Origin: Ureaplasma urealyticum serovar 8 str. ATCC 27618
GTDB taxonomy: Bacteria; Bacillota_I; Bacilli_A; Mycoplasmatales; Mycoplasmoidaceae
NCBI RefSeq assembly: GCF_000169535.1
Contig: NZ_AAYN02000002.1
Location: 248,001-312,000, forward strand
Reading direction: 5' to 3'
Length of the DNA: 64,000 bases
Of the stretch, positions 16,935 to 39,303 are shown in pieces. A program made the translations under genes and the position numbers. Position 1 is the stretch's first letter; each line of letters begins with the position of its first letter. Below the pieces are notes generated by a model. The model was not told the origin of the DNA and did not search any database. It worked only from the letters and a program-made list of their open reading frames with translations.

Positions 16935-17870
16935 ATGACAAATAAAGTTATTCAAAGAAATATTCATATTTCGCACCGTAAAGCTTCTCTTGTAATTGAT
17001 TTAGTTCGAAACAAGCCAGTACATGAAGCAATTCGAATTTTAAGCAATACACCAAAGAAGTTTGCTCCAATCGTTTTGAAATTACTTAACTCAGCAATTT
17101 CAAACGTTCAACATAACTCTAAAGATATGGATCCAAGTAAACTATATATTTACAAAATTGTAGCTAATCAAGGTCCAACAATGAAAAGAACACTACCACG
17201 TGCTAAGGGTTCTGCTGATCAATTATTTAAACGTACAACACATTTAGAAATTGTTTTATCTGATGATGTTAATGAACGTGAAAAAGAATTAGCAGCTATT
17301 AAAGCTAAAAAATCAAAAAAACCATTAGTAGTTGAACCAGTCGCTAAAGTTGAAACTAAAAAAGTTGCTAAACCAAGCAAAGTAGAAACAAAACCAGTTG
17401 AAAAAGACGAAAACGTTGATCCAGAACTTTTAAAACGTGAACAACAAGTTTTAAAAGTTGTTGAAAAAACTGCTTCACAAAAAGAAGAAGAAACAACTGA
17501 AACAATTATGATTTCAACATCACCTAAGAATGCACAAGTTTTATTTGATGATTTAGAAAAAAATGTAATCTTTTATAAAACAACACCTGTTAATAAAGTT
17601 TTACGTGTACTAGTTTATGTAACTAGCCCAACTAAAAAAGTTGTTGGTGAATTTGATTTAGAATCAGTTGAAATTGGTGCAATCTCATCAATTTGAAGAA
17701 AATACAACAAACAATCTGTAATTTCTAAAAAAGAATATGATGCTTACTATGAAGGAAAAGATAAAGCACATGCACTTGTAAGCAAAAAAGCATATAAATA
17801 CCGTAATCCAAAAGATCTTAGCGAATACAACATGACTAAAGGTCCAAGTGGATTCCAATATTTAAAATAG
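16935..17870 (+). CDS. rplV: 50S ribosomal protein L22 with a fused ASCH/PUA-like C-terminal domain
   Basis: 311 residues against about 110 in most bacteria. Residues 1-115 are a normal L22, including the beta-hairpin that lines the exit tunnel ([20 protein letters not shown]). Residues 115-190 are a Lys/Val/Glu/Pro-rich linker. Residues 192-311 form a compact domain with the order [28 protein letters not shown]-x-[21 protein letters not shown] and a terminal G-P-S-G-F-Q-Y-L. This order matches my memory of ASCH/PUA-like RNA-binding proteins (COG4933-type). The linker and domain are in frame with no stop, in the normal operon position, between S19 and S3. The L22 part is certain; the domain name is inference. 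Confidence 0.93.
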
Positions 17871-38973: not shown

Positions 38974-39303
38974 ATGAGTTTTTCAAATTTTTTATTTAAG
39001 GTATCAGAGGTTTTTTCATCAATTATTCATGAAGCTACAGATATTGTTACTCAAGCTGATTTAGATAATGCTAACGCCCATGCGCATTCATTAGCTGTTG
39101 GTTTAGGTATTGGAATTGTTTTATTTTTAATTGCAGGACTTGTGATAGGTTATTTTGTTTCAATGAAAATTATGAAGCGCCAATTAAAGAAAAATCCGCC
39201 AATTTCAAAAGATACAATTCGTATGATTTATCAACAAGTAGGGCGTAAGCCAAGTGAATCACAAATTAATGAAATTTATAATCGAGCAGTAAAACAAAAG
39301 TAA
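38974..39303 (+). CDS. UPF0154-family membrane protein
   Basis: 109 residues. One transmembrane helix (about 42-66) is followed by the family block RQLKKNPPISKDTIRMIYQQVGRKPSESQIN. It has an N-terminal extension of about 40 residues not usual in the Firmicute YneF-like members. AGAGGT precedes the ATG. The function of the family is unknown. It is followed by engB after 4 bases. Confidence 0.88.
   Translation: MSFSNFLFKVSEVFSSIIHEATDIVTQADLDNANAHAHSLAVGLGIGIVLFLIAGLVIGYFVSMKIMKRQLKKNPPISKDTIRMIYQQVGRKPSESQINEIYNRAVKQK

Follow-up and report, generated by a model that had tools for sequence, protein, structure and literature searches.

Introduction

Few proteins are as conserved as those of the ribosome, and it is rare for one of them to gain an entire globular domain. 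One fusion of ribosomal protein L22 to a further domain has already been catalogued as a whole-protein family in NCBIfam (NF008917/PRK12279, '50S ribosomal protein L22/unknown domain fusion protein'), in which the added domain is left unnamed. In Mycoplasma pneumoniae, a related mollicute, several ribosomal proteins, including S6, L22 and L29, carry extensions that are mostly disordered or consist of secondary-structure elements (PMC9534751).

ASCH domains are known from other settings. The Zymomonas protein ZmASCH (ZMO0922; PDB 5guq, 5gus, 5y6b and 5y6c) binds nucleic acids and is a weak ssRNase, and both activities need Tyr47, Lys53 and Ser128 (PMC5615036). ASCH proteins have also been linked to (PIN)-GNAT-EVE operons (PMC7641849), an arrangement that PADLOC lists as candidate defence system PDC-M11 with ASCH as component B. 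In the lambda-like phage PhiR47_2, an ASCH gene annotated 'GevA antitoxin' adjoins a 'GevT toxin'; the toxin and antitoxin labels derive from annotation and domain logic and are candidate assignments. The domain, its superfamily and the catalogued L22 fusion are therefore known already. A literature search, with most subscription papers beyond its reach, found nothing on the L22 fusion or on GevT-GevA, nor on the identity of the fused domain, its descent from a defence cassette or its movement among L22, S3, S20, S16 and ATP synthase. Here we compare an L22 fusion of Ureaplasma with these systems.

The rplV gene and its product

The window, the whole stretch of 64,000 nucleotides that was analysed, belongs to a mollicute genome of 0.88 Mb (G000), congeneric with Ureaplasma diversum, U. 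canigenitalium and Ureaplasma sp. ES3154. Its rplV gene (16935–17870, forward strand) lies in the S10 operon with S19 and S3 as neighbours and encodes 311 residues. The frame needs genetic code 4, because the invariant Trp254 is encoded by TGA (17694–17696). The product is the same protein as that described by NF008917, which it matches over its full length with 635.2 bits against a curated cut-off of 526.

The L22 core occupies residues 1–110 (16935–17264; PF00237 at residues 7–109, 1.4e-33; TIGR01044) and is followed by a mostly disordered Lys/Glu/Val-rich linker at residues 111–160 (17265–17414), with AlphaFold2 pLDDT below 50 at residues 127–160. A conserved 16-residue pre-motif (residues 161–176, 17415–17462) and a second flexible linker with low pLDDT in both predictions (residues 177–189, 17463–17501) precede the C-terminal domain, which spans residues 190–311 (17502–17867) and ends in GPSGFQYLK. 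The AlphaFold2 model of full-length L22, of low overall confidence (pTM 0.40, 8 sequences), consists of the core, a disordered tether and a folded domain, with residues 127–160 and 176–187 predicted disordered and 188–298 folded. A sequence-only reading of this DNA had described L22 as a 311-residue protein with a folded-looking C-terminal domain; the open reading frame, the PF00237 core and the predicted fold agree on this, and all of the motifs it quoted are found in the protein. M. pneumoniae L22 also has a C-terminal extension (PMC9534751), whereas in Ureaplasma the extension includes a complete globular domain that belongs to a known superfamily. Pfam matches to DUF365 and to a Phage_ProQ_C-like family were sub-threshold and were discarded.

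The same reading took an internal ATG (17508–17510, Met192) at the beginning of the domain as a sign that a separate gene had been captured. The other three Ureaplasma L22 proteins, from U. diversum, U. canigenitalium and Ureaplasma sp. ES3154, have Ile at this position (ETIIIS or ENIIIS), so the ATG is no mark of a captured start codon and was ruled out as the remnant of a gene start. The idea of capture holds in substance, since free-standing relatives of the domain exist.

Fold of the C-terminal domain

The last 121 residues of L22 match the Zymomonas ASCH chains in the PDB at 7.8e-11 by sequence and at 1.6e-19 with a profile. A search with the Pfam ASCH model PF04266, which had been proposed as a check, gave no match for the window L22 protein and succeeded for its relatives, the best scores being 5.3e-7 (A2) and 2.5e-8 (GevA). 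Structure prediction had been proposed as a check as well. AlphaFold2 modelled residues 161–311, together with 26 relatives, as an ASCH-type barrel (pLDDT 92.8, pTM 0.86) for which ZmASCH is the top structural match (VIA-align Z 16.1, 1.7 Å, 123 residues, 26% identity, PDB 5guq). Foldseek matched the model to ASCH structures at 2.1e-11, and in both searches ZmASCH was followed by other ASCH structures and, more distantly, by YTH domains; the TRIP4 ASCH domain reached a VIA Z of 8.6. By profile and predicted fold, the domain is an ASCH domain with a PUA-like fold, as the sequence-only reading had proposed.

The pre-motif contains a helix (residues 163–170) that is predicted with confidence (pLDDT 92 in the module model), although its link to the barrel is floppy. 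Because several YTH domains align from residue 1 of the module model in the VIA alignments, the predicted helix might lie away from the pocket and stand in for the element at the YTH N-terminus, which we suggest only weakly. The L22 domain shares its fold and the equivalents of Tyr47 and Lys53 with ZmASCH, but differs in the replacement of the Arg32, Gln127 and Ser128 equivalents, in the extra pre-motif helix and in its fusion to a ribosomal protein.

Ancestry in a candidate defence cassette

Free-standing relatives, about 125 residues long, are spread over the class and are also encoded by archaeal viruses and phages. The window domain matches PADLOC PDC-M11B (PDLC04425) at 3.4e-26 over 120 residues and phrog_3136 at 2.2e-21. 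A GevT-like gene adjoins 13 of about 26 free-standing loci examined; four of the 13 are in the bacterial family that includes Ureaplasma, with cassettes such as L021 and L025. Taken together, the sequence comparisons indicate that the L22 domain descends from the ASCH partner (PDC-M11B/GevA-like) of a (PIN)-GNAT-EVE cassette. PDC-M11B/GevA proteins are free-standing, are often paired with M11A/GevT, and keep the GxKxxExR and PQSF motifs, whereas the L22 domain is fused in frame, is unpaired and has lost both. No M11A/GevT gene lies beside rplV, and no GevT gene was found in genome G000. In the domain tree, fused and free copies fall on separate sides (support 97/95) and host labels are intermixed.

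This ancestry raises the question of whether the antitoxin role was itself retained. A GevA-like domain fixed permanently to abundant essential proteins would guard the cell against an incoming GevT (GNAT-EVE) as an anti-addiction device; the closest free relatives are partner genes of GevT-like proteins, cassettes are present within the same family, and abundant carriers would guarantee supply. However, residues kept by every free copy are lost from all fused copies, and the term 'antitoxin' goes back to the annotation of a single depositor, no GevT-GevA paper having been found. We regard this explanation as improbable. GevT is present in 7 of 95 genomes and absent from those with the close fused form, a correlation that is uninformative with GevT in so few genomes.

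Several free-standing loci are unusual in themselves. One genome (G208, contig 1) has three equally scoring free-standing ASCH genes, at 39052, 347629 and 414670 (L062, L068 and L069), as if on a mobile element. Elsewhere, a GevT-like gene split into two reading frames stands beside a free ASCH gene (L022:1869-3159, G079), and the cassette looks broken. A 297-residue open reading frame (L059, G387) appears by eye to join an acetyltransferase-like N-terminal part and a free-type ASCH domain in one frame.

Loss of signature residues and selection

We compared 17 fused with 9 free copies in ZmASCH numbering. Glu30 and Arg32 of the GxKxxExR motif are each present in 9/9 free and 0/17 fused copies. 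The PQS[FY] loop, which holds the nuclease residue Ser128, is retained as PQS in free copies and has become PSGF in 17/17 fused copies, in all of which the GPSGF loop and the YLK end are constant. Further, the pocket aromatics persist in the fused copies (Trp73 in 17/17, Tyr47 and Tyr90 each in 16/17), and Thr49 is kept in 14/17. In the window copy, the equivalents of Tyr47 and Lys53 are present and that of Ser128 is Gly by structure-based end alignment; the Arg32 and Gln127 equivalents are lost as well. With its signature residues lost, the domain has probably given up catalysis and is probably not an enzyme, while a pocket may remain. This bears directly on the idea of an active, ZmASCH-like ribonuclease tethered to the ribosome. 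ZmASCH cleaves ssRNA weakly through Tyr47, Lys53 and Ser128 (PMC5615036), and the window copy still has the Tyr and the Lys, but Ser128 is Gly in all fused copies, Lys53 varies among them, and a nuclease on each ribosome would be costly; an active enzyme is very hard to credit.

The dN/dS of the domain ranges from 0.02 to 0.24 in six orthologous pairs and is exceeded by that of the linker in four of the six. In one pair, domain and L22 core have the same value, 0.21. These values clearly point to purifying selection on the ASCH domain.

The module on other host proteins

The survey for the domain covered 95 genomes of the bacterial family. The close form of the module was found at the C-terminus of L22 in nine genomes, S3 in eight, ATP synthase alpha (AtpA) in four, S20 in one and S16 in one, all in Ureaplasma and Malacoplasma-like genomes. 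Curated models identify the hosts (TIGR01009 for S3, TIGR00029 for S20, TIGR00002 for S16 and TIGR00962 for AtpA), and each host also matches the domain part of NF008917. The pre-motif, roughly LKREQQxLKVV, stands shortly before the barrel in all close hosts, while the linkers of different hosts are unrelated. In G000, the module is carried by L22 and AtpA only. The AtpA copy lies outside the window in the F1Fo operon (contig 2, 175641–178052; L100:5642-8053), and its C-terminal extension comprises an acidic tether and an ASCH domain 54% identical to that of L22. The accessible part of a study of mycoplasma F1-like ATPases mentions no domain on AtpA (PMC3369863).

Host choice varies between close relatives. 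In three genomes (G036, G037 and G039), L22 has only a Lys-rich tail and the module is on S3 instead. In another (G033), the L22 and S3 domains share 98% protein and 94% DNA identity (dS 0.31, dN/dS 0.03), which points to recent copying or gene conversion. The sister genomes G003, G005 and G007–G009, some of them incomplete, have the module on no host, so that it seems dispensable at genus scale. An L22-core tree, built on a short alignment with weak inner support, implies about four changes in L22 fusion state and shows no clear single origin of the L22 fusion. Two L22 genes stand apart in other ways: one encodes a protein of 284 residues with an Ala/Lys/Pro low-complexity tail and no ASCH domain (L079, G029), and the other carries the ASCH module in an S10 operon of altered order, with S3 after L29 and not directly after L22 (L108:1343-4119, G034).

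Such patchy presence and shifting host choice would be expected of a passenger, that is, a module that spreads by duplication and is tolerated at flexible C-termini, its conservation reflecting only the need to fold. Against this stand the constancy of the GPSGF loop and YLK end in all 17 copies, the pre-motif kept across hosts with unrelated linkers, a pair in which domain and L22 core have equal dN/dS, and the several genomes that lack the module on L22 and have it on S3. We therefore consider a mere passenger unlikely.

The ribosomal hosts lie at unrelated sites on the ribosome, and ATP synthase alpha is part of the membrane ATPase, off the ribosome. The common element is thus the module and not the place, and the close hosts resemble one another in a single respect: each is abundant, belongs to a large complex and has a free C-terminus. 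This matters for the earlier reading of the domain as a putative RNA-binding domain near the tunnel exit, which is probably too narrow because the module is carried at ribosome positions unrelated to each other, as well as by ATP synthase alpha, and because the ASCH signature is lost in every fused copy. In a broader form, an RNA-binding auxiliary would keep an RNA or modified-base pocket in the barrel and would act in translation or in the storage of ribosomes by holding mRNA, tRNA or rRNA close to them. RNA binding is common among PUA/ASCH domains, and ZmASCH binds nucleic acids (PMC5615036). The fused domains retain Y47, W73, Y90 and mostly T49 and have net charges of +1 to +12, and ribosomal proteins make up four of the five close hosts. 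The domain is, however, also carried by AtpA and a channel-like protein, the R32, Q127 and S128 equivalents are gone, and the ribosomal hosts are scattered. With the pocket aromatics persisting, an RNA-binding role is a serious alternative, though on balance an unlikely one.

The scatter of the ribosomal hosts, together with a host off the ribosome, leads us to favour, tentatively, the exaptation of a non-catalytic ASCH module for docking, as a C-terminal domain that works independently of its host. In this account, the ASCH partner of a (PIN)-GNAT-EVE cassette became, in the Ureaplasma/Malacoplasma lineage, a module of pre-motif helix, flexible link, ASCH barrel and constant C-terminal GPSGFxYLK. 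It lost the ASCH signature residues and was placed by copying on the C-termini of the abundant complex-forming proteins L22, S3, S20, S16 and ATP synthase alpha. Held on a long disordered tether, the domain could then let ribosomes and F1-ATPase bind a common partner in the same cells. The fold, ancestry, spread over hosts, signature-residue loss and purifying selection are established by the comparisons above; to these we add, by inference, the docking itself and the shared partner. Some of the evidence runs against docking: the kept pocket residues also fit nucleic-acid binding, abundant proteins can be under purifying selection because misfolding has to be avoided, and the module seems dispensable in the sister genomes. 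It is conceivable, though rather unlikely, that in Ureaplasma a domain derived from phage defence or a toxin-antitoxin pair serves as a mobile, host-swapping address tag through which ribosomes and ATP synthase are held at one common cell structure or linked together.

Within one small bacterial family, a single domain whose origin can be traced to a candidate defence cassette is found on four ribosomal proteins and ATP synthase alpha, and it can pass as a copy from one ribosomal gene to its neighbour. The case allows a concrete test of how defence-system parts are exapted for housekeeping, and of whether a shared tag organises ribosomes and membrane ATPases in minimal bacteria. In addition, the name ASCH can replace 'unknown domain' in the standard annotation family NF008917.

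Divergent versions of the domain extend beyond the close hosts, in genus g6 to AtpA and a Pro-rich protein, in genus g9 to ion-channel-like proteins, and a widened profile gave weak extra matches (E 0.002–0.008). The Pro/Gln-rich protein of genus g6 (L111:1607-3115, L031) matches no Pfam family and ends in an ASCH module with a related pre-motif. The channel-like (Ion_trans_2) proteins of genus g9 (L105:368-1996 and L106:1314-2882) carry a strongly diverged ASCH relative at the C-terminus.
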